Shown in pieces: positions 8,416 through 33,395 of a DNA stretch of 64,000 bases. Below the pieces are notes generated by a model. The model did no database searches. It was given only the letters and a program-made list of their open reading frames with translations, and was not told the origin of the DNA. The position numbers and the translations under genes are program-made. The number at the start of each line of letters is the position of its first letter. Position 1 is the first letter of the stretch. Location: NCBI GenBank assembly GCA_022572885.1, contig JACZVC010000012.1:1-64000 (forward strand), in the 5' to 3' direction. The stretch comes from Pseudomonadota bacterium. Its GTDB lineage: Bacteria; Pseudomonadota; Gammaproteobacteria; Steroidobacterales; MnTg04.

Positions 8416-8790
8416 ATGCATTACGAATATCAAGGCTGGATGCTTGCAGTTCTCATAGCGTTTGATCAGTTTGGCAATGCGATTGGTGGCGGCAACCCAG
8501 ATTCTACGATCTCCGCCCGAGTGGGCCATTTCTCGGAATTTACTTCTCGCAAAGATTTTCCTGTGAAATACTCCTATTGGAAGACACTCGAGTGGATAAT
8601 CGATCTTTCATTCTACCCAATCGATGGTGCAAGACATTGTTACCAAGCAGCGACAGCGGATATACACGGTCGTTACGAGCGTGGTAACGATATAACCCAG
8701 TTCGTGCTCAGCATGATTATTTTCATGGTATGTCCATTAATCGCTATCGTGCTATGGCTACTGTCGCCGTTCTTTCGGTCCTCCGGGTAA
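8416..8790 (+). CDS. small mobile-element membrane protein
   Basis: 124 residues. It resembles small proteins of phages and integrative elements with the pattern DQFGNAIGGGNPDSTISARVG, then a WKTLEWIIDLSFYPIDG segment and HCYQA. A C-terminal membrane helix (FVLSMIIFMVCPLIAIVLWLL) is clear here. Function unknown. Its stop codon lies at the left edge of a roughly 70-bp stretch that also occurs beside ssrA, so the gene abuts an attachment site and probably belongs to an inserted element. Confidence 0.65.
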   Translation: MHYEYQGWMLAVLIAFDQFGNAIGGGNPDSTISARVGHFSEFTSRKDFPVKYSYWKTLEWIIDLSFYPIDGARHCYQAATADIHGRYERGNDITQFVLSMIIFMVCPLIAIVLWLLSPFFRSSG

Positions 8791-8812
8791 CTAGCTGATA
8801 ACAGGCAGGAAA

Positions 8813-8834
8813 AAAGCCATCCTGGGACGGCTTT
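8813..8834 (-). terminator. ssrA-type terminator hairpin at the left attachment site
   Basis: AAAGCCATCCTGGGACGGCTTT is a near-perfect hairpin (one A-C mismatch) preceded on the plus strand by an A-run, which is a T-run on the minus strand. It is nearly identical to the ssrA terminator at 33349-33370 and sits the same distance from the core, so it is either the original chromosomal ssrA terminator or one carried by an older insertion. Confidence 0.7.
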
Positions 8835-8844
8835 AGACTTTGTG

Positions 8845-8859
8845 TTGGTGGAGGCGGCG
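8845..8859. repeat. attachment-site core, left copy
   Basis: TTGGTGGAGGCGGCG is identical to the last 14 nt of ssrA plus one base. To the right it diverges from ssrA and reads ACTACCGAATAATAGGTG, the element end, which is shared with the copy at 12651. A small palindrome (AATAG, 7 nt, CTATT) follows at 8870-8886. To the left, about 70 bp including the terminator resemble the ssrA flank at 33326-33380. Confidence 0.85.
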
Positions 8860-8921
8860 ACTACCGAATAATAGGTGTAAACTATTGGATATAAAGTGAA
8901 AGTGTAATTCTCGTGTTTGCA

Positions 8922-8942
8922 GTTGCCCCCAATGTTGCCCCC
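8922..8942. repeat. integrase arm-type direct repeat, left copy
   Basis: Two direct copies of the TTGCCCCC motif (GTTGCCCCCAATG, then TTGCCCCC) lie about 65 bp inside the element from the core. The same arrangement occurs at 12728-12748 and near the integrase start. Position and repetition suggest arm-binding sites for the island integrase. Confidence 0.6.
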
Positions 8943-11394: not shown

Positions 11395-11944
11395 CGTGAG
11401 ACCTAGCCCTGCATACACCGATTCCGAATTCATACTGGGCAGAAACCGGCTCACTTCTGGCCGGCGAGTACCCGGGCATGCGTTCTGAGCACCTGTCAAA
11501 GTCGAAGCTGGCCAGGTTTCTTGATTCAGGTGTTACATACTTTATTGATCTCACCGAAGCGGGAGAACTACGCCCGTACGAACCGGACTTGGAAAGGCTT
11601 GCAGAAGATCGGACTATCGATGTCTGTTATCGGCGCTTTCCCATACGAGATGGGGGGGTACCTCCGCACCAGGATGACCTACAACAGCTCCTGAACACTA
11701 TTAAAGGCGCCTTGTGCGCGCGCCATGTCGTGTACATCCACTGCCTGGGTGGAGTAGGCCGTACAGGTCTGGTTGTCGGTTGTTATCTTGCAGAAAAACA
11801 TCGGAGCGGTCGGCAAGGACTCGCGAAATTGCAGGATTTCTGGACAGAATGCGAAAAATCAGCCTATCGGCCAACAACGCCGGAAACTGAAGAACAACGC
11901 CAGTGGATCCTGGCCTGGGGGAGTGTGTAAACCGCGCAATAGCG
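11395..11944 (+). repeat. 550-bp phosphatase block, copy 1
   Basis: The block from CGTGAG (11395) to AGCG (11944) recurs with the same length at 26866-27415. Sequence similarity starts and stops abruptly on both sides and covers the whole phosphatase gene plus about 80 bp upstream and 14 bp downstream. Confidence 0.85.
11478..11930 (+). CDS. protein tyrosine/dual-specificity phosphatase, copy 1
   Basis: The CX5R signature is HCLGGVGRTG, with Cys as nucleophile, preceded by FIDLTEAGE and CYRRFPIRDGGVP (general-acid loop with Asp). The product is 150 residues from the ATG. The frame stays open and protein-like upstream of it: IPNSYWAETGSLLAGEYPG is the usual N-terminus of this family. That extension would begin at a CTG (11409) where relatives have an ATG, so translation either starts at a non-canonical CTG or yields an N-truncated protein. 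The second copy (26949-27401) shows the same thing and differs at 15 of 150 residues by my count. Confidence 0.8.
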   Translation: MRSEHLSKSKLARFLDSGVTYFIDLTEAGELRPYEPDLERLAEDRTIDVCYRRFPIRDGGVPPHQDDLQQLLNTIKGALCARHVVYIHCLGGVGRTGLVVGCYLAEKHRSGRQGLAKLQDFWTECEKSAYRPTTPETEEQRQWILAWGSV

Positions 11945-12643: not shown

Positions 12644-12650
12644 TATGTTG

Positions 12651-12665
12651 TTGGTGGAGGCGGCG
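12651..12665. repeat. attachment-site core, middle copy
   Basis: TTGGTGGAGGCGGCG is identical to the copies at 8845 and 33381. To the right it continues ACTACCGAAAAATAGGTG like the left copy, with the palindrome AATAGG-TGTAA-CCTATT at 12676-12692. It marks the joint between the two tandem elements. Confidence 0.85.
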
Positions 12666-12727
12666 ACTACCGAAAAATAGGTGTAACCTATTGAAAATAT
12701 AGAGAAAGATAAATTCGCATTACTTGA

Positions 12728-12748
12728 GTTGCCCCCAATGTTGCCCCT
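12728..12748. repeat. integrase arm-type direct repeat, middle copy
   Basis: GTTGCCCCCAATG followed by TTGCCCC, placed 62 bp inside the element from the middle core, matches the left copy. It marks the left end of the 20.7-kb element. Confidence 0.6.
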
Positions 12749-13825: not shown

Positions 13826-13935
13826 CCTGGCCGAAGGCGGACTGTCAAAAATCGGCTTTTGCTCAAATCGAACGTCCGCTATACACCCGGAAGCGGACAT
13901 TCAGCTAATATTGCCACGAAGGGCCGCTAACGACT
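13826..13935. repeat. AGCGGAC/GTCCGCT palindromic repeat, copy R1
   Basis: The pattern is CTGGCCGAAGGCGGAC, a spacer with TCAAAAATCGGCTTTTG, GTCCGCT (13874), 11 nt, AGCGGAC (13892), then a tail CTAATATTGCCACGAAGG. The inner pair forms a hairpin. Copies R2 to R5 share this plan. The tail and the adjoining miniature element are shared with R2. Confidence 0.75.
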
Positions 13936-14203
13936 GCGATTTCAATCGGTCGACGCAACACTTTAACTAAAACGCAGAAGATGGCGTGTATGCTGATGAA
14001 TCATAAGGAGACGTCGAGGTCTTCACGGGGCAGAGAAAGTGGAGCTGTGGGACCGCTGAAAGCGAGCAGGGGCGCTAAAGTCGATTGGGCGAGCGTTTGA
14101 CAAACCTTCATCGTCTGGTTATCACCAGTTGACGCCGCACAGGGGGATCGAAACCCCAGCAGAGAGGATTAACACAGGTGTTGCGTCGACCGGTTGAAAT
14201 CGC
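13936..14203. mobile_element. IS30-derived miniature element, copy 1
   Basis: 268 bp with 26-bp inverted ends (cores ATCGGTCGACGCAAC on the left, GTTGCGTCGACCGGT on the right, one mismatch). The inside encodes a broken version of the N-terminal region of IS30-family transposases, in which copy 2 still reads AAEKAELWNRWKR. The rest of the transposase is absent, so this is an internal-deletion derivative. Similarity between the ends extends some 14 bp further out in copy 3. Confidence 0.8.
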
Positions 14204-14424
14204 AACCCAAAGCCGACCTTCAACATTATGCCGTTTTGAGCTAGCGTCCCATGAAAGTGGTCGTGATTCGCGTCTTTCTCGCCTGCTGCGGTACGAAAGG
14301 ATACCGTGACTATTTTTCCATCCATGATGTTGTCGAAGACTTTGATGGCTTTGAAGTCCGTAGAGCCGGGATTGTCTTCCTCTATTCGAATTCGCGCTTT
14401 TTCCTTTATTTCGTCGAGATTCAT
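14122..14424 (-). CDS. hypothetical protein with a 3' end supplied by the miniature element
   Basis: 100 residues. Residues 1 to about 72 (MNLDEIKEKARIRIEED, then FKAIKVFDNIMDGKIVTVSF) look like a normal small cytoplasmic protein. From about residue 73 the frame runs into the right inverted repeat of the IS30-derived element (LRFQPVDATP) and stops inside it. The original 3' end has been lost, so the product is a fusion. Function unknown. Confidence 0.5.
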   Translation of the reverse strand: MNLDEIKEKARIRIEEDNPGSTDFKAIKVFDNIMDGKIVTVSFRTAAGEKDANHDHFHGTLAQNGIMLKVGFGLRFQPVDATPVLILSAGVSIPLCGVNW

Positions 14425-15904: not shown

Positions 15905-16018
15905 TGGTTCTGACCGAAAGCGACCCCTCAAAAATCGGCTTTTCGGCATTTTGACAGTCCGCTTTCCACCCAAAAGCGAACATTCAGCTAATATTGCCAC
16001 GAAGGGCCGCTAACGACT
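15905..16018. repeat. palindromic repeat, copy R2
   Basis: It has the same plan as R1 (CTGACCGAAAGCGA, TCAAAAATCGGCTTTT, GTCCGCT, AAGCGAACATT) and the same tail CTAATATTGCCACGAAGG, and runs directly into miniature element copy 2. The unit repeat-plus-element therefore occurs twice. Confidence 0.7.
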
Positions 16019-16284
16019 GCGATTCCAACCGGTCGACGCAACACTTTATCGAAAACGCAGAAGATGGCGTGTATGCCAATGAATCATAGGACTCGTCGAG
16101 GTTTCATGGCGGCAGAGAAAGCGGAGTTGTGGAACCGCTGGAAGCGAGTAGGGGCGCTGCGTCGATTGGGCGAGCATTTGGCGAACCTTCATCGTCTGTT
16201 GATCACCAGTTGGTCCCGCACGGGGGGATCGAAACCCCAGCAGAGACGATTAACGCATGTGTTGCATCGATCGGTTGAAACCGC
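16019..16284. mobile_element. IS30-derived miniature element, copy 2
   Basis: 266 bp with inverted ends as in copy 1 but more substitutions. The internal frame from 16064 still reads MNHRTRRGFMAAEKAELWNR, then LITSWSRTGGSKPQQRR, which matches the N-terminal helix-turn-helix region of IS30 transposases. The catalytic DDE domain is missing. Confidence 0.8.
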
Positions 16285-16351
16285 AGCCGAAAGCAGCCCG
16301 TCAGCACGTTGCTTTACTGGTCGATTGAATGTCCGCTTCTCTAATCGGGCG

Positions 16352-18286: not shown

Positions 18287-18864
18287 GCTCGAATAATACA
18301 GGAAGTTCCGTCAGTTCCCACAACTGCAAAATCGGGCCTGAATGCAGCCCTTCTTGCCGATCTGCGCGCCGACGAAATCGGCGTATTTCTGCACGGGATT
18401 TTACCTAAACAATACCTAAGTTCAACGAGTTTCGGTCACTTACCACATAACTCATTGAAAAATATGGCGTCCCCAGGGGGATCTGGACGTTGCGCTAACG
18501 CCAGATCTCGGTATCCCCCTCAGGATCGAGATCCGGCGTGCCCTGAAGTCTACCACCGCCACCCCAGTAGTGAGTGAGCGCAATAGATTGCGCTCTGGTC
18601 CATGACTGGGATTTGACTTGGTAGACAGTGTCAGAAGGCTAATGCCCGTTTAGGCTAATTGTGGGGCCATCTGACCAATCTTCTACTATACTTAGTGATA
18701 AACAACAAGGCCAAACCCGCCGAAAGACGGGGGCGAAAAGTTACGGGTCCTCGTTTCCTCCGAGAAGTTACGGACGACCTCCCGAAGGACCCAAAGACAA
18801 CCGGGCTGTCGAAGCTACAGCCGCATTGTCCGTGGAGCAGGCCCGAAGTTGAATGGAGGTACCC
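18287..18864. other. intergenic stretch before the TIR gene, with a long hairpin
   Basis: No convincing gene is seen. At 18476-18519 GGGGGAT and ATCCCCC enclose nested arms CTGG/CCAG and CGTT/AACG, giving a long interrupted hairpin without a T-run. A GGAGG (18855-18859) serves the TIR gene. The promoter of the TIR/SLOG genes is presumably here, but I cannot place it. Confidence 0.4.
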
Positions 18865-21018
18865 ATGGCCAGCTTGTCGGAAACGGGCGATCATCGATAC
18901 CAGGCCTTTATCAGCTACTGCCATCAGGATGAAAAATGGGGTGTCTGGCTTCATAGGGCGCTGGAGGGGTATCGCGTGCCCCGCTATTTGGTCGGCAAAA
19001 ACACCGCGCACACACTAATCCCCCGCCGCCTCACCCCGATTTTCCGCGATCGTGACGAACTGCCCACCGCAACTGACCTGGGTAAGGTCGTCAATGAAGC
19101 CTTACAGCGCTCAGCGTGTCTGATCGTCATCTGTTCGCCGCACGCTGCCCGCTCCCGCTGGGTCAATCAGGAGATTCTCAGCTTCAAGCGCTGGGGTCGT
19201 TCGGATCGCATCTTGTGCCTCATCGTCGAGGGCGAACCAAATGCAGCCGACAAACCAGAGCTGGAAGCCGAGGAGTGTTTTCCCGAAGCCTTGCGCTACG
19301 TTCTGGGCCCGGACGGGGCGCTGACTGACGCACGCACCGAACCGATTGCCGCCGATGTGCGGCCCCAGGGGGACGGCAAGGCCACCGCAAAGCTGAAGTT
19401 AATCGCCGGCCTGCTCGGTGTTGGTCTTGACGAGCTGAAGCATCGTGAACAGCATCGTCGCCATCAGCGCATGGCCGGTGTCACGGCGATGGCATTAGGC
19501 GTTATGGTAATTACAACTGTACTGGCAATAAAGGCGATCGTTGCTGAGCGCGAGGCACTACAACACCGTGCTCAAGCTGAAGGACTGATCAGTTTCATAT
19601 TGGGTGACCTGCGAGAAAAGCTGGAGCCTATCGGTAGGCTCGACGAGCTCGATAGCATCAGCGACAAAGCGTTGGAATATTTTGCCTCACTTACCGACAA
19701 GGACATTACGCAAGAGACATTGGCAATACGAAGCAAGGCACTGCGTCAAATTGGTGAGGTCCGCATGGCGCAGGGGCACCTCGGTCCAGCCATGGAAGCA
19801 TTCCAGCGGTCATTATCGGATGCAGAGCTGCTGGTACAACGCGAAGCTGAGAACAATGAAGCACTGTTCTTATTAGGTCAGGCTCATTTTTGGATCGGTT
19901 ACGTTCATAAGGAACAGGGCGATCTCGACCGCACGCTGCAACATCTTCAGAGGTACATGGACGTTTCGAAAATGCTGGTCGAAAGAGAGCCTGAGAATGA
20001 GAGGTGGCAGCGTGAACTTGGTTATGCGTATACGAATCTGGGTGCAGTTTATAGTGCACGCGGCGAAACCGATAATGCGCTCGAGCAATTTTTAGGTGAC
20101 CAGGCGATCGGGAAAGAACTGGTAGCCCGGAATCCCGATGACTTGAACATGCAGTTCGATCTGTCCGAAACAACATCGTGGGTAGGTTCGGCGCTAAGCG
20201 CGCTCGGCGATTTGGATGGTGCACTCGAACAGTTTCATGAGGAAGTCGCGATCAAAAACAGATTGGTTACCGCAGACTCTCAGAATACGGGGTGGAAACG
20301 GCGCTTGAGCCTCGGCCACCGGAGAGTCGGCGAAATTCTCGAGGCACAGGGTAAGTTGAACGAGGCGATCGATAGTTTTCGGACTGCGTTGAGAATCAGC
20401 GAAAACCTGGTTTCGCTGGACCCGAGCAACGCCAACTGGCGGCGGGACATCGGCGTGCTGCGGGCAGGCATGGGCCGCATTGCACTCGCACTCGATCATC
20501 CTGAAGAGGCCCTGATAAATTTCGGGAACTACATGCGGATCATCGAAACCCTGCTTGCCGAAGATGCCAGCAAAACCCGCTGGCAGAGAGACCTGGCTGA
20601 TGGCCGCATCCTCACCGGGAACGCCCTCAAGGTAAATGGCCACCTCGAAGACGCGGAATCTGCTGCAAAAAAAGCAGCTGAAGCTTTGCTAAGTCTTTTA
20701 TCTGAACATCCGGATGATCGTGAAGCTACACGCTTGCTCAGTGAAGCGTACCTGCTCGATGGTCAGTTGCTAGCGCTGTCAGGTAATGATGAACAGGCAC
20801 TTGCGGCCTGGTTAGAGTCACTCGAGCTCATTGAACCGCTGGCGCGAGCGACCAAAGATTATCGAATTCTGAATATAGAGGCACAAGTGCTTCTGCACCT
20901 GGATCGAATTGAAGAAGCGAGCCCCATTGTCGAGCAGCTTGCAGCGATGGGATTTGCGAATCCGGCTTTTGTCGGCCTGCGCGATAGCAAGGGCTTATCG
21001 GCAAGAGCCGTTCCATAG
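18865..21018 (+). CDS. TIR-domain membrane protein with TPR repeats
   Basis: 717 residues from the ATG behind GGAGG. TIR domain, residues about 10-130: YQAFISYCHQDEKWGVWL, PIFRDRDELPTATDLG and SRWVNQEIL, in which Glu103 matches the catalytic Glu of NAD-cleaving TIRs. One membrane helix (about 204-225) is followed by ISFILGDLREKLEPIGRLDEL, common in TIR- or kinase-TPR proteins, and then about eight TPR-like repeats to the C-terminus (for example YTNLGAVYSARGETDNALEQF). The TIR should face the cytoplasm. It is followed by an orphan gene and a SLOG-membrane gene on the same strand, suggesting a signalling or defence cassette. Confidence 0.88.
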   Translation: MASLSETGDHRYQAFISYCHQDEKWGVWLHRALEGYRVPRYLVGKNTAHTLIPRRLTPIFRDRDELPTATDLGKVVNEALQRSACLIVICSPHAARSRWVNQEILSFKRWGRSDRILCLIVEGEPNAADKPELEAEECFPEALRYVLGPDGALTDARTEPIAADVRPQGDGKATAKLKLIAGLLGVGLDELKHREQHRRHQRMAGVTAMALGVMVITTVLAIKAIVAEREALQHRAQAEGLISFILGDLREKLEPIGRLDELDSISDKALEYFASLTDKDITQETLAIRSKALRQIGEVRMAQGHLGPAMEAFQRSLSDAELLVQREAENNEALFLLGQAHFWIGYVHKEQGDLDRTLQHLQRYMDVSKMLVEREPENERWQRELGYAYTNLGAVYSARGETDNALEQFLGDQAIGKELVARNPDDLNMQFDLSETTSWVGSALSALGDLDGALEQFHEEVAIKNRLVTADSQNTGWKRRLSLGHRRVGEILEAQGKLNEAIDSFRTALRISENLVSLDPSNANWRRDIGVLRAGMGRIALALDHPEEALINFGNYMRIIETLLAEDASKTRWQRDLADGRILTGNALKVNGHLEDAESAAKKAAEALLSLLSEHPDDREATRLLSEAYLLDGQLLALSGNDEQALAAWLESLELIEPLARATKDYRILNIEAQVLLHLDRIEEASPIVEQLAAMGFANPAFVGLRDSKGLSARAVP

Positions 21019-21164
21019 CGGAATGTGATCGTGATGGAGCGCTAACATTTTGTATTTGAAAAAAACCGCCATCACGAAGCACACAAGGCGCTTCGGCCGG
21101 TTCGATAAACCATATTGTCGGGCTTTCCGAGCGAAAATTGAAATAAACAACAGGAGATACTCTG

Positions 21165-21479
21165 ATGAGAATGTTTAATGTATCGAACGATGGAACAAAA
21201 GTGACTTGTGTTCCAGAAAGAATGCATGCGCCACGCGGGTACGAGGAAATTGCGATTTGCCTTGACAAGAAATCGGAACGTAGGTACGAACTAATTGTGT
21301 CAATTGGAGAAGACCCAGATAATGCGCTCACGTTCCAGCCGCTAACTTCGTCGATGGTTGTGCTGCAAAACAATAATTGTTCGCCTAGTAAAGCGAAGTT
21401 TAATATTGGACTGAAGCCGTTGCCACGGTCCAAAGCACGTGCGCTCGCGCCACTTGATCCACATATTGTGAACGAATAA
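21165..21479 (+). CDS. small protein between the TIR and SLOG genes, unknown
   Basis: 104 residues behind AACAGGAGATACTCTG, a good ribosome-binding site. It reads MRMFNVSNDGTKVTCVPERM, then GYEEIAICLDKKSERRYELIVSIGED, probably a small beta-rich domain. No membrane segment or motif is recognised. Its position, 146 bp after the TIR gene and 203 bp before the SLOG gene, makes it a possible third component. Confidence 0.5.
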   Translation: MRMFNVSNDGTKVTCVPERMHAPRGYEEIAICLDKKSERRYELIVSIGEDPDNALTFQPLTSSMVVLQNNNCSPSKAKFNIGLKPLPRSKARALAPLDPHIVNE

Positions 21480-21521
21480 AAAAAAGGCGATTACTGGCCA
21501 ACCTCAGTTGACGTTGGATAA

Positions 21522-21647
21522 GGATTGCAGTTGATCGTGCCTCTGCCGATGCCGAAAGATCTGTATCGGCACGGCTTGGCGAGCGACGCGGACAGGTGGG
21601 AGTTCGACCGGCTGGTTAGCCAGGCAGAGGTGTTCGAACTTGGGTAA
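21522..21647 (+). pseudogene. remnant of a second SLOG-domain gene
   Basis: A 41-codon open stretch, without a start codon, reads GLQLIVPLPMPKDLY, then WEFDRLVSQAEVFELG. It aligns without gaps to residues 98-137 of the intact SLOG protein just downstream, with 20 of 40 residues identical by my count. Nothing similar is seen before or after it. It is a clipped remnant of a diverged paralogue, not a recent duplication. Confidence 0.75.
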
Positions 21648-21682
21648 AGTCGCTGCTCGCCCACCGGGAGATATAAGACACC

Positions 21683-23503
21683 GTGCAAGAGATCATCGCC
21701 ACGGAGGCGGGACGACCAATCAGGCCGGACGCCGCGGCCCCGGGCCGCGGCGAAAGGGTGATATCGGATCTCGAACTCATTGAACCGGTGTCGTTGGTCG
21801 TCGGCGTCACCGGCCACCGCGACCTGGTCGAAACCGAAATCCCAGGCTTGAGTGACCGGATTCAGAAGTTCTTTGAAGAGATTCAAGAACTCTGCCCGCA
21901 TACGCCGGTCGGCATCCTCACCCTGTTGGCTGAAGGCGGCGACCTTTTGGTTGCCAAGGTGGCCCGGGCGCTCGGGCTGCGGCTTGTCGTGCCCTTGCCC
22001 GTGCCAAGGGACCTCTACCTGCGAGATTTTGGTAGCGAGCAAGCGAGGAAAGCGTTCGAAGATCTTTGCCAATATGCGAACGTATTCGAGCTGCCCCTGG
22101 TTGACGGCAATACCTTGGCGGCCGTGTCTCGCGATGGCGAAGCGCGCAATAAGCAGTACGCGCAAGCCGGCGTTTATGTGGCCAGTCACTGTCAGATATT
22201 GCTGGCACTTTGGGATGGCAAACCATCCGAGGAACTGGGTGGCACAGCGCAGGCCGTGCAATACCACATCACCGACCAAATGCCCGAATTCCTCGAGGAT
22301 CGGAAGACGGCACAACAGTTATTGGCCGAGGACGAAAACGATCTCGTCCTGCACCTCGTCTGCTCACGGGATCAGGCGAACGGTCAACCGGCAGAGCCGC
22401 TGCAGCCCCTCCAGACCCGCTGGTTGAGCTCTGATGCCGACCAGCCGAGCTCTGATCAACTCCCCCGCCGCTACCAGCGAATCTTTGCGAGAACTGATGA
22501 GTTCAATCAGGACGCGCTCAAATACAGCGCCAGGATCGCCTGCGAGAAAACCGATCTGATCTCGCCCGATGAATACCACAAGCTGAATGCCAATGATCGG
22601 CGCGTGAATCAACTTTTCTACGCCGCGGATTGGCTCGCCGATCACTATCAACACCGCTTGAACATGGCACTGCGGGGAACTTATCTCATCGCGGTGCTGA
22701 TGGGACTGTCGTTTATTCTGTACGCTGATCTGCCGAACTACGACTATATGGTCTATGTGTTTCTGCTCTTTTTCGGCGTTGGTTTCGCTTTGTATCTGTT
22801 AGGGGAAAAACGTGACTGGCATCGCAAGTATTTGGATTATCGGGTGCTGGCGGAGGGTTTGCGGGTGCAATTTTTCTGGCAGATCGCCGGTGTCAGCGCT
22901 GGTTCTGGCACCGAGTTCGCACACGATAATTTTCTCCAGAAACAGGACATCGAATTGGAATGGATCCGCAATGTTATGCGGGTTGCCAGTCTCCACCGCA
23001 GGGCCCGCGTCGGTCCGAGCATCGAATGCGGCCTGGATGAAGCGATCAAGCGCTGGATTGGCGATCCTCAAAATGAAACCAACAGCAGTCAAATCGGTTA
23101 CTACGCGCATAAGGTCACGGAACGTACGCGTCTACACATGATCACGCAGGTGATCGGCAGGGCCTGTCTGTGGGCCGGCATTGCAGTCGCGGTGGCACTC
23201 GCCTTGTTTCAACACGTGCTCGAGGATGAGGCGCGCAATGCCTTGATTGTGCTGATGGGAATCTTGCCGCTGATCGCCGGTGTGCGAGAAGCCTATGCGC
23301 ATACGAAAGCGGACAAAGAGGTGATCAAACAATACCATTTCATGCACAGAATATTTGGCAGCGCGGCGCGTCAACTGGCTCGTGCCGAAACGACCCAGGA
23401 CAAACTCAGCATTCTCAAGGCCCTCGGTAATGCCGCGCTCGACGAGCATGCGGAATGGATATTGATGCACCGTGAAAGGCCGCTGGAGCACGGGAAGTTG
23501 TGA
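21683..23503 (+). CDS. SLOG-like sensor domain fused to four membrane helices
   Basis: 606 residues from a GTG with GGGAG 12 nt upstream. Residues about 36-200 look like a SLOG (LOG/DprA-like Rossmann) nucleotide-binding domain: VVGVTGHRDL, ILTLLAEGGDLLVAKVA, LRLVVPLPVPRDLY, and CQILLALWDGKPSEELGGTA. Two hydrophobic helix pairs follow (331-350 and 354-373; about 493-540), with RKYLDYRVLAEGLRVQFFW between them, like the SLATT-type effector modules described with SLOG sensors. It is expected in the inner membrane, possibly permeabilising it when the SLOG domain binds a nucleotide signal. The neighbouring TIR protein is the obvious signal source (inference). Confidence 0.8.
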   Translation: MQEIIATEAGRPIRPDAAAPGRGERVISDLELIEPVSLVVGVTGHRDLVETEIPGLSDRIQKFFEEIQELCPHTPVGILTLLAEGGDLLVAKVARALGLRLVVPLPVPRDLYLRDFGSEQARKAFEDLCQYANVFELPLVDGNTLAAVSRDGEARNKQYAQAGVYVASHCQILLALWDGKPSEELGGTAQAVQYHITDQMPEFLEDRKTAQQLLAEDENDLVLHLVCSRDQANGQPAEPLQPLQTRWLSSDADQPSSDQLPRRYQRIFARTDEFNQDALKYSARIACEKTDLISPDEYHKLNANDRRVNQLFYAADWLADHYQHRLNMALRGTYLIAVLMGLSFILYADLPNYDYMVYVFLLFFGVGFALYLLGEKRDWHRKYLDYRVLAEGLRVQFFWQIAGVSAGSGTEFAHDNFLQKQDIELEWIRNVMRVASLHRRARVGPSIECGLDEAIKRWIGDPQNETNSSQIGYYAHKVTERTRLHMITQVIGRACLWAGIAVAVALALFQHVLEDEARNALIVLMGILPLIAGVREAYAHTKADKEVIKQYHFMHRIFGSAARQLARAETTQDKLSILKALGNAALDEHAEWILMHRERPLEHGKL

Positions 23504-23616
23504 AACGACAGACTCTATTGCGCGTTGAGCGTCTGGCCTCAAAAAGGTGATGCGGCAGCTGGAAATGGAGTCGCTTACACACGAAACATGAGCGGCCATA
23601 ACGTCCGCTTTTGGCT

Positions 23617-23884
23617 GCGATTTCAACCGGTCGACGCAACACTTTAACTAAAACGCAGAAGATGGCGTGTATGCTGATGAATCAAAGGAGACGTCGAGGT
23701 CTTCACGGGGACAGAGAAAGTGGAGCTGTGGGACCGCTGAAAGCGAGGAGGGGCGCTGAAGTCGATTGGGCGAGCGTTTGGCGAACCCTCATCGTCTGTT
23801 TATCACCAGTTGACGCCGCACAGGGGGATCGAAACCCCAGCAGAGAGGATTAACACAGGTGTTGCGTCGACCGGTTGAAATCGC
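23617..23884. mobile_element. IS30-derived miniature element, copy 3
   Basis: 268 bp with perfect 26-bp inverted ends around ACCGGTCGACGCAAC. The ends remain similar for about 14 bp further out (GTCCGCTTTTGGCT on the left, AACCCAAAGCCGAC on the right), so the full element is nearer 296 bp (23603-23898). The internal sequence is almost identical to copy 1. It ends 45 bp upstream of the kinase start and may provide promoter sequence. Confidence 0.85.
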
Positions 23885-23942
23885 AACCCAAAGCCGACAC
23901 TGGCATTGATTAAATCTGGCATGATTTTGAAACACTGATTTT

Positions 23943-25466
23943 ATGCAAACCATTAAACTAATCCACGAGATATGGGAGATAGATACGAAAAAAGCCCTAG
24001 GTTCACCTGGGGGCTTCGGTGAAGTTTTCCTAGGCAAAGGCAGCAGTGGGGAAGTAGCAATCAAGCAACTTAAACTAACCGCCACTCAAGCAGCGCATCG
24101 TGAGTTACAAATAGGACAATCTCTTTTCGAGCGTTCGCTACAACACGTCGTACCTATCCTAGATTATGGTCAGGATGCTGACTCTGATCGTTATTATATC
24201 GTCATGCCAGTCTGCGATCGGAGTTTACAAGATTACATCGATGACAAAGGCGTTGGTTCTCCAGCCGATTGCATCGAGATTCTATTAGCTATTCTTTGCG
24301 GGCTTAAAGAAGCGAAAGACATTACCCATAGGGATATAAAACCATTAAACATATTGATGCACGAGGCAAAATGGAAAATTGCAGATTTTGGCATTGCCAA
24401 GTTTGTGGAAGACTCTACATCCCTGGAGACTCTGAGAAACAGTCTCACACCGGCATATGCTGCTCCGGAGCAATGGTTATTGCAACGCCCTACTAGTGCA
24501 ACAGATATATATGCTGTTGGATGTATCGCACATGGTCTATCAACAGGTGCTCCGCCGTTTTCTGGTGATGTAGATTCACTGCGCGAACAACACCTAAAAG
24601 AGACCCCGGAATCTCTAGACAGCTTGCCTGCAAGCGTACGCGGTTTGGTGTCTCAGATGATGCGAAAAAATCCTGATATTCGGCCGAGTTTAGAGCGCTG
24701 TATAACTGTGCTTGAAAATGCAAGAGGCGGCGAACCGCAGAATGTTAGAGGGGTCGAAAAAAGACTTGCTAAAGCAGTTAGTGAACTTGCAGTTACACAA
24801 GCTAGAAAGGAAGCTGACCAGCAGGCAAGAGACGAGCGAAGACGTAATAGAGAGGCCGTTTTTGATGAAGCTGCGAGTGAGTTGGCCCAAATAAAAAAGA
24901 GACTATTTGGCGAAATAAATCATCACGCTCAAGATGTAAGGGAAAACACCTCCAACGACTCCGTTCTCCGAATTGGAAATGCTACTCTAGCTTTTGATAC
25001 AGCAGAAAGCGCATCGAGTGTCAGAGGATTGATAAGGAGTGATCTCGAACAGATTGGAGGAAGTGCAGGCTGGGGAGTGCATAAACAACAATCGAAATGG
25101 GACATAGTTGCCTTTACTAATATCTCAATTGAGCAAATAGGTGATCATAACTTCTATAAACGTTGTGCAAATATCGTTTTTGGCAGGCCCAGCAATGATT
25201 CTGATTACCGGTGGTATGAAATGGCATTCTGGTCCTTATCTTCGTCGCCAGTCGGATGGGCCGACAGTTACCCATTTTGCCTAGACTATGTATGGGAGAT
25301 TGATGAAGCTCTTTCCAGTGTAATGGCCGTGAATAATCTAGCCTATGATCCTGTGCCCATAGACGCTGAAGACGCAGATTCCTTTATAGAATATTGGATG
25401 GATATCGTGACCCAAGCAATTGTCGGCAAACTTGTGAAACCCTCACATATGCCAATGAATCGATAA
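23943..25466 (+). CDS. Hanks-type Ser/Thr protein kinase with unique C-terminal domain
   Basis: 507 residues. Kinase domain 1 to about 260: Gly loop GSPGGFGEVF, Lys in EVAIKQL, catalytic loop HRDIKPLNIL, DFGIAKF and APEQW, all intact. A charged coiled coil follows (about 270-330, KAVSELAVTQARKEADQQAR), then a roughly 170-residue domain I do not recognise, rich in Trp and Tyr (GWGVHKQQSKWDIVAF, YRWYEMAFWSLSSSPVGW). There is no membrane helix, so it is cytoplasmic. Base composition is A+T-rich against the core genes. Solitary kinases of this type occur in phage-defence islands. Two tyrosine-phosphatase genes lie nearby, but they are not cotranscribed with it. Confidence 0.85.
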   Translation: MQTIKLIHEIWEIDTKKALGSPGGFGEVFLGKGSSGEVAIKQLKLTATQAAHRELQIGQSLFERSLQHVVPILDYGQDADSDRYYIVMPVCDRSLQDYIDDKGVGSPADCIEILLAILCGLKEAKDITHRDIKPLNILMHEAKWKIADFGIAKFVEDSTSLETLRNSLTPAYAAPEQWLLQRPTSATDIYAVGCIAHGLSTGAPPFSGDVDSLREQHLKETPESLDSLPASVRGLVSQMMRKNPDIRPSLERCITVLENARGGEPQNVRGVEKRLAKAVSELAVTQARKEADQQARDERRRNREAVFDEAASELAQIKKRLFGEINHHAQDVRENTSNDSVLRIGNATLAFDTAESASSVRGLIRSDLEQIGGSAGWGVHKQQSKWDIVAFTNISIEQIGDHNFYKRCANIVFGRPSNDSDYRWYEMAFWSLSSSPVGWADSYPFCLDYVWEIDEALSSVMAVNNLAYDPVPIDAEDADSFIEYWMDIVTQAIVGKLVKPSHMPMNR

Positions 25467-25493: not shown

Positions 25494-25606
25494 TGGCCGA
25501 AAGCGGACTGTCAAAAATCGGCCTTTGCTCAAATCGAGCGTCCGCTATACACCCGAAAGCGGCCATTGGGATGGTAGAGTCCTGAGCGGCCGCTAACGGC
25601 CAGAAG
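25494..25606. repeat. palindromic repeat, copy R4
   Basis: TGGCCGAAAGCGGACTG, TCAAAAATCGGCC, GTCCGCT, 11 nt, AAGCGGCCATT, then GAGCGGCCGCTAACGGCC. It is nearly identical to R1 in the first 70 bp. It lies between the kinase gene and the UDG-like gene. Confidence 0.7.
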
Positions 25607-26850: not shown

Positions 26851-26866
26851 CTGGCCGAAAGCGGAC
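26851..26866. repeat. palindromic repeat, copy R5 (truncated)
   Basis: CTGGCCGAAAGCGGAC is identical to the start of R4-type repeats and then stops. The 550-bp phosphatase block begins at its last base, so this repeat is the left junction of that block. Confidence 0.65.
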
Positions 26867-27415
26867 GTGAGGCGCAGCCCTGCATACACCAATTCCGAAT
26901 TCATACTGGGTAGAATCTGGCTCACTTCTGGCCGGCGAATACCCGGGGATGCGTTCTGAGCACCTGTCAAAGTCCAAGCTGGTCAGGTTTCTTGAGTCAG
27001 GTGTCACATACTTTATTGATCTCACCGAAGCGGGAGAAATACGCCCGTACGAACCGGACTTGGAAGGGCTTGCAGAAGATCGGGCTATCGATGTCTGTTA
27101 TCGGCGCTTTCCCATACGAGACGGGGGGGTACCTCCGCACCAGGATGACCTACAACAGCTCCTGAACACCATTACAGAGGCTTTGTGTGCACGCCATGTC
27201 GTATACATCCACTGCCTGGGTGGAATAGGCCGTACAGGTCTGGTTGTCGGTTGTTATCTTGCAGAAAAACATGGGAGCGGTCCGCAAGGACTCGCTAAAT
27301 TGCAGGGATTTTGGACAAAATGCGAAAAATCCGCCTATCAGACAACAACGCCGGAAACTGAAGAACAACGCCAGTGGATCCTGGCCTGGGGGAGTGCGTA
27401 AACCGCGCCATAGCG
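26866..27415 (+). repeat. 550-bp phosphatase block, copy 2
   Basis: Equal in length to the copy at 11395-11944, with abrupt ends (CGTGAG, AGCG). The left end falls on a truncated palindromic repeat. The two copies lie in different tandem elements of the island. Confidence 0.85.
26949..27401 (+). CDS. protein tyrosine/dual-specificity phosphatase, copy 2
   Basis: 150 residues with an intact CX5R loop (HCLGGIGRTG) and the Asp loop FPIRDGGVP. The frame extends upstream through IPNSYWVESGSLLAGEYPG to a CTG at 26880, exactly as in copy 1, so the same non-canonical start question applies. Both copies keep open frames and catalytic residues, and they differ mainly at surface-type positions, which points to selection for function after duplication. 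Confidence 0.8.
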   Translation: MRSEHLSKSKLVRFLESGVTYFIDLTEAGEIRPYEPDLEGLAEDRAIDVCYRRFPIRDGGVPPHQDDLQQLLNTITEALCARHVVYIHCLGGIGRTGLVVGCYLAEKHGSGPQGLAKLQGFWTKCEKSAYQTTTPETEEQRQWILAWGSA

Positions 27416-27759: not shown

Positions 27760-29391
27760 ATGCGCGATTTTCGGCTAACCCTTAAGAATTACCGGTGTTT
27801 CAGAAATGATGTACCCGTATCCATCGATTTACGAAGAGGTTTTACGGCATTAGTCGGGCCTAATAACTCTGGCAAGTCTACAATATTGAAGTTTACACAT
27901 GAGCTAAAAGACCTTTGGGGACAATTTGTCCCTCAAAGTGGGGCTATTGGGACCGCGCTAAGAGGTGAAATGATAGGGGTAACTTATCGTGATGTCAGTG
28001 ATCCGTTGGAGCTATTTTGCAATTCAAATTCAGATGGACTTTCATTCAAAATTGAACTATTAGAGACGGAACCAGTTGTGCCCGGCACACAACCGATCGT
28101 CGGTGTGTCGGGTTTTGCAGAGCGGGCAAGCCCAACCAATTGGAAAATGCAATTCTTGTATGGCGCTAAGCGTAAGCAAGTTGATTCTGCCTCATCCAAT
28201 AGAAAGCACCCAATATGGACCTCAGATCCAAACCAAGCTTTAGCCGTCTGGGGAAATACGCAATACGACTTTTCGTCGATATTAGAGTTACTGTCTCAGC
28301 TTAATCGATGTCTCTATATTCCGCCGTTCCGAAATGCAATCAACGAAGGATCAGGAACGTACTATGGAATAACCGTTGGTAGTAGTTTTATAGAAACGTG
28401 GAATACTTGGAAAGGAGGTGGAAGGATATCGCAAGCGAAGGTAATTGAAAATGTTACGGAGGACATAAAATCATTGTTCGCTTTTGAAAAATTTGAGGTA
28501 AACGCATCAAGCGATAGAAAAGAACTACGGGTAAATATCGACAGTCAACCATACAGACTGGCGGAGTTAGGGTCTGGATTGGCTCAATTCATAATAATAT
28601 TTGGGAATGCTGCGATATCGAAACCTCCTCTGATAATGATCGACGAGCCGGAATTAAATCTGCATCCGTCGCTTCAAATATCATTCCTTTCAGCTTTGGC
28701 GCGGTATGCAGATGGAAATATCATTTTTGCAACTCACTCCGTAGGACTGGCGAGGTCAACTGCTGAGAGTATTTATTCATTTCGATTAGGGCCAGGGCGA
28801 GTACCGATTGTTTCTAGTTTTGAACAAACGCCAAATTACGCGGAATTCGTCGGAGAGATGTCGTTCTCTGCATTCAAGGAACTGGGTTGTGAATCCATTC
28901 TGCTTGTAGAGGGAGTGACAGACGTAAAGACGTTCCAACAATTTCTTCGGAAACTCAAGAAAGAAGCAAGTGTTGTCGTGATACCTCTCGGCGGAGATGC
29001 AATGGTATGCGGTGGAAGAGAGATTGAATTGGGAGAATTAACGAGGATCACACCAAAGGTCTTCGCTATCGTCGACAGTGAGCGTAAAGGGAAAGGCAAG
29101 GCGCCATCGAAAAATCGGAACGAATTCAAAAAATCATGCGAGAACCTCAATATTACCGTCCATCTTACAGAGCGCAGAGCGACGGAGAACTACTTCACAG
29201 ACGAGGCAGTGAAGGCGGCTTGCGGTGAGAACTTTTCAGCGTTGGGAGATTTCGAGAATCTGAAATCTAGCTCAAATGCGTGGAACAAAACTCAACACAA
29301 TTGGCAGATTGCAAGTCGGATGACAAAGGAAAATCTTGAAGACACCGACGTAGGTCGATTTCTAATTAGTGTCTTAGACATACCGAAGTAA
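27760..29391 (+). CDS. OLD-family ATPase-TOPRIM nuclease
   Basis: 543 residues. An ABC/SMC-like ATPase occupies the first two thirds: FRLTLKNYRCFRN, Walker A GPNNSGKST, signature-like LAELGSGLAQ, Walker B PLIMIDEPELNLHPSLQ, and ATHS. A TOPRIM domain follows: ILLVEGVTDVKTFQQFL, VIPLGGD and FAIVDSERKGKG, with the acidic residues expected to bind Mg2+. This is the plan of OLD nucleases and of GajA-type defence proteins. No UvrD-like (GajB) or DUF4435 partner is adjacent, so it is a stand-alone class. A+T-rich composition suggests recent transfer. Confidence 0.9.
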   Translation: MRDFRLTLKNYRCFRNDVPVSIDLRRGFTALVGPNNSGKSTILKFTHELKDLWGQFVPQSGAIGTALRGEMIGVTYRDVSDPLELFCNSNSDGLSFKIELLETEPVVPGTQPIVGVSGFAERASPTNWKMQFLYGAKRKQVDSASSNRKHPIWTSDPNQALAVWGNTQYDFSSILELLSQLNRCLYIPPFRNAINEGSGTYYGITVGSSFIETWNTWKGGGRISQAKVIENVTEDIKSLFAFEKFEVNASSDRKELRVNIDSQPYRLAELGSGLAQFIIIFGNAAISKPPLIMIDEPELNLHPSLQISFLSALARYADGNIIFATHSVGLARSTAESIYSFRLGPGRVPIVSSFEQTPNYAEFVGEMSFSAFKELGCESILLVEGVTDVKTFQQFLRKLKKEASVVVIPLGGDAMVCGGREIELGELTRITPKVFAIVDSERKGKGKAPSKNRNEFKKSCENLNITVHLTERRATENYFTDEAVKAACGENFSALGDFENLKSSSNAWNKTQHNWQIASRMTKENLEDTDVGRFLISVLDIPK

Positions 29392-31809: not shown

Positions 31810-31998
31810 CTATCCGGCTTGTGATGCCTTACCGAACCTTCCAACTGTTACGTTGCCGCCATCAGTCTGAGGGTCGAAGTAGTCCACCGAATGCTTGCGC
31901 GCCTTTTGGAACGGGACCAAACATAATGGATTAATGGTAGTGCTCATTAAAATTAGCTTCAAGGCTTCATCAAAGCTTGCCCACGGTGACTTAAACAT
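31810..31998 (-). CDS. small protein overlapping the integrase stop
   Basis: 62 residues starting with MFKSPWASFDEALKLILMST. Its ATG overlaps the last 8 bp of the integrase gene. Small frames in this place can be transcribed with the integrase, but nothing else supports it and the family is unknown. Confidence 0.35.
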   Translation of the reverse strand: MFKSPWASFDEALKLILMSTTINPLCLVPFQKARKHSVDYFDPQTDGGNVTVGRFGKASQAG

Positions 31999-33217
31999 TC
32001 TGTCCCCCTTTGTGTGCCTGCCCTTGTGAGGGAGCCGCGCCTGCTTTCAGCTTGTCCAGGTGATCTGCCCAATCCTGCATCATTTCACGTCGTTGGGGCA
32101 GATGAATGGTGCGGTTGTAGGCTCGTCCGTTGGGGTCACGAACCGCATGGGCGAGTTGATGTTCAATGTAGTCAGGACGGAAGCCCAGCACTTCATCTAG
32201 GATGGTCCTGGCCATTGCCCGGAAGCCATGGCCGCTCATTTCTTGCTTGCTAATACCCATGCGTCGCATGGCAGCAAGGATCGCGTTCTCGCTCATGGGT
32301 CGCGCTGTGCTTCGTGCTCCGGGAAAGACATAGCGCCCAAGTCCGGTGAGAGGGTGCAGTTCGCACAGGATGCTAACGGCCTGGCGGGAGAGGGGAACGA
32401 TATGCTGGGTATCAGTCTTGGTGACAGTGAATCGCCATTCTGCCTCGTCCAGGTCGATGTCTGCCCATTCCGCATGGCGCAATTCGCCGGGCCGCACAAA
32501 GACCAAAGGAGCAAGACGGAGGGCGCAGCGCACGGTAAGGGTACCTTCGTAGCCGTCCAGTGCTCGGAGCACCTCAGCGACCTGTTTTGGCTCGGTAACG
32601 GATGCAAAGTGTTTACCCTTAGTCGGTGGAAGTGCACCACGAAGGTCCCCAGATGGGTCTCGTTCGGCACGTCCGGTGGCGATGGCATAGCGAAATACCT
32701 GGCCACAGTTGCCCAAGCCCCGATGGGCGGTTTCCAGTGCACCACGTTGCTCAATTCGCTGAATAACCTCCAGTAATTGAGGCGCGGTGATATCGGCAAT
32801 GGGCTTGCCCCCTATCCAGGGAAATATGTCCCGCTCAAGTCGGCGAATGATCCGGTCCGCATGACTCGCTGACCAGTTGGGGGAGTGCTTGGCGAACCAT
32901 TCCCGAGCAACTACCTCGAAGCTGTTTGCTGCCCGTTGTCCTTTCGCGGCCTTCTGGGCCTTGCGATGCTCGCTAGGATCGACATCATTGGCCAGCAGTT
33001 TCCGCGCCTCGTCACGCCGCCCACGAGCGTCTTTCAACGACACCTCGGGGTAAACGCCAAGCGACAGTCGCTTTTCCTTGCCCCCAAAACGGTACTTTAG
33101 CCGCCACCATTTGCCTCCGCTAGGAGAAACTTCCAGATATAACCCGCCACTGTCATACATCCTTTTGATCTTAGTGCCGGGTTTTGCGTTACGGATAGCG
33201 GTATCTGTCAACGACAT
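31991..33217 (-). CDS. int: P4-type tyrosine integrase
   Basis: 408 residues from the ATG at 33217. The N-terminal DUF4102 domain (MSLTDTAIRNAKPG, GLYLEVSPSGGKWWRLKYRF) and SAM-like core-binding domain are followed by the catalytic domain with Arg in RLAPLVFVRPGEL, HGFRAMARTIL (H-x-x-R), IEHQLAHAV (His) and the nucleophile Tyr in NGRAYNRTIHL. It should recombine the island at the 3' end of ssrA, which lies 165 bp upstream of its start. One GTTGCCCCCAATG motif overlaps its start codon, so integrase binding there could repress its own expression. Confidence 0.95.
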   Translation of the reverse strand: MSLTDTAIRNAKPGTKIKRMYDSGGLYLEVSPSGGKWWRLKYRFGGKEKRLSLGVYPEVSLKDARGRRDEARKLLANDVDPSEHRKAQKAAKGQRAANSFEVVAREWFAKHSPNWSASHADRIIRRLERDIFPWIGGKPIADITAPQLLEVIQRIEQRGALETAHRGLGNCGQVFRYAIATGRAERDPSGDLRGALPPTKGKHFASVTEPKQVAEVLRALDGYEGTLTVRCALRLAPLVFVRPGELRHAEWADIDLDEAEWRFTVTKTDTQHIVPLSRQAVSILCELHPLTGLGRYVFPGARSTARPMSENAILAAMRRMGISKQEMSGHGFRAMARTILDEVLGFRPDYIEHQLAHAVRDPNGRAYNRTIHLPQRREMMQDWADHLDKLKAGAAPSQGQAHKGGQNV

Positions 33218-33247
33218 TGGGGGCAACTCATTAAGGTGATAGCATAC

Positions 33248-33277: not shown

Positions 33278-33343
33278 GGATGTCAACGGATGTTATTGGT
33301 ATTAGACGGACGAAAAATCCAGATAACTTACTGATAATAGATA

Positions 33344-33370
33344 AGAAAAAAGCCGTCCTGGGACGGCTTT
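33344..33370 (-). terminator. ssrA terminator
   Basis: On the minus strand AAAGCCGTCC and GGACGGCTTT form a perfect 10-bp stem followed by six T. It starts 11 nt beyond the ssrA 3' end. As it lies between the core and the integrase, it is the copy contributed by the inserted element. Confidence 0.85.
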
Positions 33371-33380
33371 GAATCTTTTA

Positions 33381-33395
33381 TTGGTGGAGGCGGCG
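33381..33395. repeat. attachment-site core, intact ssrA copy
   Basis: TTGGTGGAGGCGGCG at the 3' end of ssrA. Unlike the other two copies it continues into the rest of the tRNA-like domain (GGAATCGAACCCGC), so this is the junction that keeps the gene functional. Confidence 0.88.

Follow-up and report, generated by a model that had tools for sequence, protein, structure and literature searches.

A probable Thoeris-like system of a TIR-TPR protein, a small protein with a constant tail and a SLOG membrane protein in a Steroidobacterales genome

Three adjacent genes in a Steroidobacterales genome (Pseudomonadota; assembly GCA_022572885.1, contig JACZVC010000012.1) probably encode an immune system of three components that resembles Thoeris, works through a nucleotide signal and has a membrane effector gated by a SLOG domain. 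The stretch analysed, positions 1 to 64,000 of the contig, is referred to as the window. The first gene encodes a TIR protein with a membrane helix and TPR repeats (TIR-TPR), the second a small protein with a shared C-terminal motif (the tail protein) and the third a SLOG domain followed by membrane helices (the SLOG protein). A previous reading of the DNA made without database searches (the sequence-only reading) had placed these genes next to each other on one strand, and all three were confirmed as plus-strand open reading frames (ORFs):

18853..21018, + strand: TIR–membrane helix–TPR protein, 721 residues; judged from its sequence, a predicted signal maker cleaving nicotinamide adenine dinucleotide (NAD) and a predicted sensor; TIR at residues 19-135, E107 in WVNQE, helix at 212-230, TPR at about 290-700
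21165..21479, + strand: small tail protein, 104 residues; predicted immunoglobulin (Ig)-like beta sandwich, C-terminus ...LDPHIVNE
21683..23503, + strand: SLOG domain with two SLATT-like two-transmembrane (2TM) units, 606 residues, GTG start; predicted ligand-gated membrane effector; SLOG at about 36-250, helix pairs at about 303-402 and 470-567

The TIR start given previously (18865) is an in-frame ATG four codons inside the ORF start at 18853, and the residue then called Glu103 is E107 in the 721-residue numbering.

Conservation of the pair was assessed in 81 SLOG loci, consisting of the best 80 from a scan of species genomes and one viral locus, which were found by the SLOG protein alone; TIR genes near them were called using our own TIR profile (E-value (E) up to 1e-4). 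A TIR gene was located within 5 kb in 60 of the 81 loci, with 56 of these genes belonging to the TIR-TPR family, and was upstream on the same strand in 44, of which 40 were within 1 kb. When only the 47 loci with 5 kb or more of flanking sequence on each side were counted, 39 had a TIR gene, on the same strand in 34. Of 39 fetched loci, six (L046, L053, L056, L067-L069) gave no SLOG gene in gene picking and L070 gave a stub. The SLOG protein was detected in 40 of 196 related genomes (E up to 1e-5), four of which had short partial matches only; among the other 36, a TIR gene lay within approximately 5 kb of the SLOG gene in 16, as compared to about 0.3 expected from chance placement of 106 TIR places in 126 Mb. 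In a set of 396 related genomes, the SLOG protein was present in 85 (E up to 1e-20), comprising 35 of the 51 genomes with TIR-TPR (E up to 1e-40) and 50 of the 345 without (Fisher P = 3.5e-15, a value that is too small because genomes of one order are related). Linked pairs persisted where the SLOG protein was just 26-29% identical to that of the window (G105, G288, G370 and G379). The prospect that the two genes would be together only rarely in other genomes, raised with the sequence-only reading, was therefore not borne out. More than one TIR gene was present in eight of the 81 loci, with seven in L081 and five in L086. Separately, runs of TIR proteins of about 600 residues and of another kind were seen next to the SLOG gene, but on the other strand, in L081 (about 11.8-20 kb), L086 and L089; the protein scanned from the L081 run contained TIR_2 and TPR.

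The window TIR-TPR protein matched the Pfam families TIR_2 (E 1.7e-11, residues 19-135) and ThsB_TIR (2.1e-8) and several TPR models above cut-off, and had a single hydrophobic helix at residues 212-230. Its SRWVNQE segment coincides with the S.WVNEE consensus derived from 60 aligned TIR-TPR sequences (a residue being shown if at least 60% agree), with E107 at the glutamate of WVNEE. A TIR domain with a catalytic-type Glu, one membrane helix and TPR repeats, as perceived from the letters, were thus all confirmed. Assignment of the TPRs as the trigger-sensing part is graded as plausible, because sequence conservation is lower in the TPR regions than in the TIR domains.

The 104-residue ORF between these genes, previously regarded as an orphan, is one of a family of small proteins, conserved yet divergent, that occupy the same position and share a tail, and it is likely a third component of the system. 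A small ORF was usually present between the TIR-TPR and SLOG genes, and the tail protein gene also trailed TIR-TPR genes located downstream of SLOG or in the opposite orientation. A strict rule for the C-terminal motif [D/N]-P-x-I-x-N identified a tail ORF behind 41 of 61 TIR-TPR genes (window included), with nine more having variant tails that were read by eye. As a control, the same rule applied behind 75 SLOG genes produced none on the same strand and three antisense. In 62 tails, the motif began with D (35) or N (24), P (62) and any residue, and continued with I (56) or V (6), K or R (40) and N (61), one extra residue following in 35; these counts arise partly by construction because the set was picked with a regular expression, and one chance match to it (L125) was left out. 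In three loci (L077, L081 and L085), a pair of TIR-TPR genes was accompanied by a pair of tail proteins. The ORFs ranged from 100-200 residues down to 49-66 residues with low-complexity bodies (seven complete ORFs), and a simple rule detected a signal-peptide-like hydrophobic start in 12 of 42 tail proteins, four of these with a lipobox. Outside the tail the bodies were hardly conserved (mean column identity of 17%). The window tail protein was modelled with moderate confidence as an Ig-like sandwich (predicted local distance difference test score (pLDDT) of 77.7, predicted template modelling score (pTM) of 0.64), whose nearest folds were adaptin-ear domains (Z 8.3, perhaps just a common arrangement).

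Association by chance or by hitch-hiking in a defence island was ruled out by the recurrent TIR-TPR / tail / SLOG order and the negative control: the order recurs across species, less often outside the class, and the rule was silent on the same strand behind SLOG genes. As a side observation, large secreted-looking proteins (480-782 residues) replace the small tail protein in the middle position of L037, L038, L043, L045 and L127, and another lies behind TIR-TPR in L090; among these large proteins, Lectin_C was above cut-off in L037 only.

The window SLOG protein had no Pfam match above cut-off, and no SIR2 or macro match was obtained in Pfam, PADLOC and NCBIfam scans. An AlphaFold2 model was generated from a 41-sequence alignment with 40 relatives (40 of 80 loci were taken; 38 failed the start motif, including many from Dyella and Rhodanobacter with TSHR, and two were dropped by hand). 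The model (pLDDT 87.7, pTM 0.87) comprised a Rossmann-like domain at approximately 37-250 followed by long paired helices arranged as two helix-pair units. The best fold match was YpsA (2nx2), a SLOG protein, which was the sole Foldseek match below 0.001 (E 6.1e-4) and which by VIA gave Z 15.7 with 162 residues aligned at 2.9 Å. Other matches of the domain were DprA (Z 11-12) and LOG with adenosine monophosphate (Z 9.9). ThsA-SLOG (6lhx; Z 7.5, 139 aligned, 4.1 Å) and TRPM8 (8e4q, against residues 34-264; Z 7.2, 155 aligned, 3.6 Å) gave values of Z < 8 that may reflect merely a common arrangement. Only the SLOG part of the comparison with TRPM2 counts, because whole-length alignments had a root-mean-square deviation near 30 Å and are meaningless. 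On the modelled structure, the N-terminal domain of the third protein is a SLOG domain, and a different fold was ruled out by YpsA, DprA and LOG-type proteins heading the match lists. The SLOG-like Rossmann domain of the sequence-only reading was thereby recovered, and its two pairs of membrane helices correspond to four helices in the model. Below-cut-off NCBIfam matches of the helical part were SLATT_3 (E 0.0078, residues 310-393, 16.2 versus 45 bits) and SLATT_1 (E 0.024, residues 470-540, 14.6 versus 41 bits), and a relative in L177 was clearer than the window, with 38.4 bits for SLATT_1 (cut-off 41). A second SLOG domain lies in front in the SLOG proteins of L044 (open frame of 850 residues) and L045 (838 residues).

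Divergence was distributed unevenly across the three proteins. As compared to L071, the nearest relative of the window among the best 80 loci, identity was 89% for the TIR and 75% for the SLOG protein, 42% for the TPR region and 14% for the tail body; paralogues within one locus were 75-85% identical in the TIR, 31-34% in the TPR and 23-26% in the tail body. Raw rank correlations of the tail body were 0.34 with the TPR region, 0.24 with the TIR and 0.32 with SLOG. When TIR and SLOG were controlled for, the partial correlation with the TPR region was 0.16, a level reached by 2 of 2000 permutations (38 units); corresponding values were -0.03 for the TIR and 0.10 for SLOG (given TPR and TIR). The identity comparison left out tail proteins of <90 residues and those not directly behind TIR-TPR, and one miscalled L101 ORF was left out of the correlation. 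This small co-variation between sequences is in keeping with a putative signalling core that stays conserved and recognition parts that can be exchanged.

For occurrence beyond the order, the phylum was sampled by searching for the TIR and membrane-helix domain with a query that included L174, which gave 19 of 359 genomes including that of the window; 16 loci from 15 genomes were analysed and G687, G690 and G710 were left out. A tail protein was directly behind TIR-TPR in six of the 16 loci (L177, L178, L179, L180, L186 and L188), with Thr-Pro in the L177 tail and 16 residues following the motif in L186, and variant tails were present in two more (L182 and L184). A SLOG match was found within 1 kb downstream in five (L177, L180, L181, L182 and L188; E < 1e-3, with values between 9e-71 and 4e-4, the set being small), such that L177, L180 and L188 had both. 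Third proteins outside the class started with TPR-S above the Pfam cut-off in L178, L180, L181, L182 and L187, and those of L180 and L188 had a cyclase domain above cut-off. By a simple rule, four membrane helices were predicted for L177 (same class), three for L182 and none for L180, L181 and L188. On a Novosphingobium plasmid (L174, Alphaproteobacteria), TIR-TPR is followed by a tail protein ending IDPDIKNPPPQV and by a protein with weak SLOG matches (E 8e-5 and 3.7e-4). The gene order is the same in L174 and some genomes of other classes, with a differently built SLOG protein. TIR-TPR matches were present in 14 plasmid records, of which three regions (L174, L175 and L176) were inspected: L175 had only a SLOG match, 2.1 kb downstream of TIR-TPR, and no tail or SLOG match was found in the inspected region of L176. 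Searches with the SLOG protein yielded no match in plasmids or phages, and the viral scan gave one weak contig (L151).

Other sensors can occupy the first position. An nSTAND-TPR protein replaces TIR-TPR in four SLOG-membrane loci (L032, L033, L038 and L048) and was recognised by similarity in L110 and as a fragment in L076; several loci of this type have a secreted-looking protein of 486-774 residues in the middle position. The N-terminus of the nSTAND-TPR protein scored 17.5 (L032) and 15.2 (L033) bits against DUF4062, as compared to a Pfam cut-off of 24.7 bits, and in L036 both TIR and DUF4062 were above cut-off. DUF4062 is described in a preprint as a TIR-like NADase (PMC13174449).

From the observed linkage and order, the modelled SLOG fold, the TIR glutamate, the shared tail and the pattern of divergence, we infer every biochemical step of the following scheme. 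The membrane-anchored TIR-TPR protein would act as sensor and signal maker, its TIR once activated cleaving NAD+ to give an ADP-ribose-type signal. The tail protein would be the cognate partner of TIR-TPR, with its variable body or its processing setting the TPR response, and the constant [D/N]PxIxN tail may be an element handed to, or held by, the conserved machinery. Binding of the signal by the SLOG domain would then cause the two 2TM units to open or cluster, permeabilising the inner membrane, and the infected cell would be stopped.

Of the Thoeris-like logic advanced in the sequence-only reading, the TIR with its glutamate, the SLOG fold and the linkage stand; the effector is not of the SIR2 or macro type and the third component had been missed. 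Type I Thoeris (ThsB TIR with ThsA SIR2-SLOG) likewise has a TIR gene beside a SLOG gene, a catalytic-type Glu and a SLOG fold. Several TIR genes accompany one SLOG gene in some trio loci, and in Thoeris there are several ThsB per ThsA. Unlike type I, the trio lacks SIR2 and has membrane helices, its TIR is fused to a helix and TPRs, and a tail protein is added. The trio is not Thoeris proper because it has no SIR2 or macro effector. An N-terminal SLOG-type domain ahead of a channel is also the layout of TRPM channels, among which TRPM2 is gated by ADP-ribose, but no sequence kinship is evident and the Z-values are within the range of common arrangements. In Thoeris with a TM-macro ThsA, a TIR enzyme is similarly coupled to a membrane effector under the control of a nucleotide-binding domain, which is macro there and SLOG here, and the abstract mentions no TPR or tail protein (PMC11204291). 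The SLATT effectors of conflict systems are 2TM units predicted to be nucleotide-gated and reported beside TIR genes (PMC9503650, PMC7159879); the trio differs in having two units fused behind SLOG, with scores below the NCBI SLATT cut-offs. The three-gene system was not found described in the literature searched, and parts of it may have been predicted earlier.

A division of labour in which the TIR is the executioner through NAD+ depletion, and the SLOG membrane protein serves not as effector but as regulator or antidote, appears improbable. Defence TIR or TIR-like NADases acting without a SLOG partner are reported (PMC12847820, PMC13174449), and the 16 of 51 genomes with TIR-TPR in which the SLOG protein is absent are compatible with such a role. 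Against it, the third protein retains its SLOG domain but differs in its remaining part, which consists of membrane helices or, in L180 and L188, a cyclase-like domain, a pattern expected if a receptor of the signal drives interchangeable outputs. We also consider it unlikely that the trio is a housekeeping pathway for envelope stress or contact signalling instead of phage defence. An envelope or contact function would be favoured by the signal-peptide-like starts of 12 tail proteins and by the large secreted-looking middle proteins of some loci, one with a lectin domain above cut-off, but the patchy distribution (85 of 396 genomes), the setting in a probable island shared with genes for a kinase, an OLD-like ATPase, a phosphatase and a UDG-like protein, and the concentration of change in the presumed recognition parts all speak against housekeeping.

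The role of the middle protein allows further alternatives. One possible, rather doubtful account is that the tail protein is DP-EP-like and cuts itself at Asp(Asn)-Pro to free a short peptide (PxIxN...), with the TPR reading this peptide or its absence and the TIR being switched on; RRNPP-type TPR proteins, which are peptide receptors, provide an analogy. A tail-family profile (A3, 42 of 52 listed tail sequences) matched SO1698 (3njh), a DP-EP protein, with E 7.5e-5 over most of the chain. SO1698 is likewise a small beta protein ending in DPxIxN (DPQIINRPQN), its C-terminus SPDPQIINRPQN aligned to the tail, and it presumably cleaves itself at the tail-aligned Asp-Pro, a self-cleavage site that Osipiuk et al. 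reportedly described in 2012. PDB chains of SO1698 have 119 residues beside 128, residue 119 of the long form being the Asp of DP (the shorter chains end at that Asp only if numbered like the long form). Window Lys78 precedes Phe79, where an alignment read by eye has a lysine in SO1698 that we take to be linked to the cut Asp. DP-EP was the Pfam family matched by most tail members (4 of 42, best E 0.011), and the seven complete short ORFs (49-66 residues, low-complexity bodies) retain the tail. The Shewanella sequence has been termed a self-cleaving endopeptidase (PMC11655445). The DP-EP homology is no more than suggestive, because the match weakens to E 0.086-0.12 once the tail is taken away, which puts it under two unrelated chains. 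Moreover, Asn and not Asp precedes Pro in 24 of 62 tails, the lysine is not a constant feature of the family, and the presumed catalytic Asp of SO1698 had no counterpart matched. No DP-EP entry was among the best 50 matches listed in either tail-protein fold search, which carries no weight either way, and a single tail protein of the pNTSase1 type did not match DP-EP. The DP-EP model of Pfam, PF08985, was above cut-off in none of 42 tail members, with no match at all for the window. Searches of 59 and 274 genomes with PF08985 (none above cut-off, two below it in the latter) and of the 274 with A3 (nothing usable) show nothing, because the controls were silent and A3 missed even the window's own protein at E 1e-4. 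We know of no link of SO1698 to TIR. An extended form of this account, which we regard as speculative and unlikely, is a peptide-gated TIR receptor in which divergent bodies, from Ig-like sandwiches to low-complexity carriers of 50 residues, have nothing in common but [D/N]PxIxN as a C-terminal 'password' and self-cleave at Asp(Asn)-Pro or are blocked by a phage protein, the tail or peptide controls the TPR, and the signal opens a TRPM2-like, SLOG-gated channel. A very improbable alternative is that the middle protein is a nucleotide synthetase (pNTSase1, PF20301) that makes or modifies the signal together with the TIR; a 2020 J Bacteriol paper is said to be the source of the pNTSase1 and TPR-S NAD-signal predictions, and the Pfam name of PF20301 stands for predicted novel nucleotide synthetase. 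Some middle and third genes of other-class relatives do match PF20301 or TPR-S (PF20308): the L178 tail protein is PF20301 (147 bits, E 5.2e-43), and the L180 one scores right at the cut-off, with 25.2 bits against 25, and weakly fits the window-family profile (E 0.011, small set). In contrast, the three window proteins match neither family and the third ends in membrane helices, and PF20301 gave no match in the window and 41 relatives at E up to 1, filters allowing. The Ig-like beta sandwich, modelled with moderate confidence, ill fits an enzyme, as do a body identity of 17%, ORFs of 49-66 residues and some signal-peptide-like starts.

Returning to the three-component signalling system, several observations weigh against it. 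Our profile detected no TIR in eight of the 47 full-flank loci; one of these, L107 (contig of G116), has a TIR by Pfam, and in seven (L078, L079, L131, L137, L139, L141 and L143) neither a TIR nor an nSTAND partner was recognised. The SLOG protein is missing, as noted above, from 16 of the 51 genomes with TIR-TPR. A strict tail protein was behind just 5 of 18 fetched TIR-TPR genes unlinked to SLOG, and 10 of the 16 phylum loci lacked a strict tail and 11 a SLOG match within 1 kb. The SLATT scores were under the NCBI cut-off in the window and just under it in L177. Close pairs of loci keep the tail body (L091/L106, 70%; L101/L108, 78%; L094/L117, 87%) and likewise the TPR region (71-85%), the partial correlation with the TPR is small, and that with SLOG comes to 0.10. 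Localisation is ambiguous: a charge bias in 66 of 69 TIR-TPR proteins suggests that the TPR part may face the periplasm, and 12 of 42 tail proteins have the signal-peptide-like start, but it was absent from the other 30, that of the window included.

The trio was previously placed in a defence-like island, and this setting is supported: the genes lie in what is probably an integrative island (about 8.8-33.4 kb), marked by an integrase beside the transfer-messenger RNA (tmRNA) gene and a 79-bp repeat of the tmRNA end at 82% identity. The features concerned are:

8782..8859: left attachment site, probable; matches 33318-33395
23943..25466, + strand: Ser/Thr protein kinase, 507 residues; Pkinase 1.3e-36, PADLOC mad6 4.5e-47 and PD-T4-6 4.5e-38
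31991..33226, - strand: tyrosine integrase adjoining the tmRNA gene; NCBIfam PRK09692 domain 1.2e-79, under the curated cut-off (267.9 versus 434 bits)
33318..33395: right attachment site, probable; at the tmRNA 3' end, 82% identity over 79 bp with 8782-8859

Besides the kinase, the neighbouring genes in the island encode a UDG-like protein, a dual-specificity phosphatase and an OLD-like ATPase. The kinase is probably another defence gene of the island, outside the trio, and the OLD-like AAA ATPase (27760-29391, weak TOPRIM match) is probably also a separate defence gene. A second attachment-site-like copy (12649-12747 versus 8843-8941, 85% over 100 bp) suggests two successive insertions at the tmRNA gene. 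Repeats of approximately 285-390 bp resembling miniature inverted-repeat transposable elements, with 86-97% identity, are located at 13827-14217, 15910-16294 and 23615-23898 and in part at 25494-25567; one copy has 40-bp inverted ends (92.5%), and two copies bracket an IS110 transposase and the three-gene module. A 551-bp duplication (26866-27415 / 11395-11944, 93% identical) carries the dual-specificity phosphatase gene.

If the proposed system is correct, a Thoeris-like class would be added whose output is a SLOG-gated membrane effector, a third component would be gained from an ORF first read as an orphan, and bacteria would have a counterpart to the ADP-ribose-gated TRPM channels. The constant tail on variable bodies would offer a testable case of TIR sensors swapping recognition parts around one signalling core.

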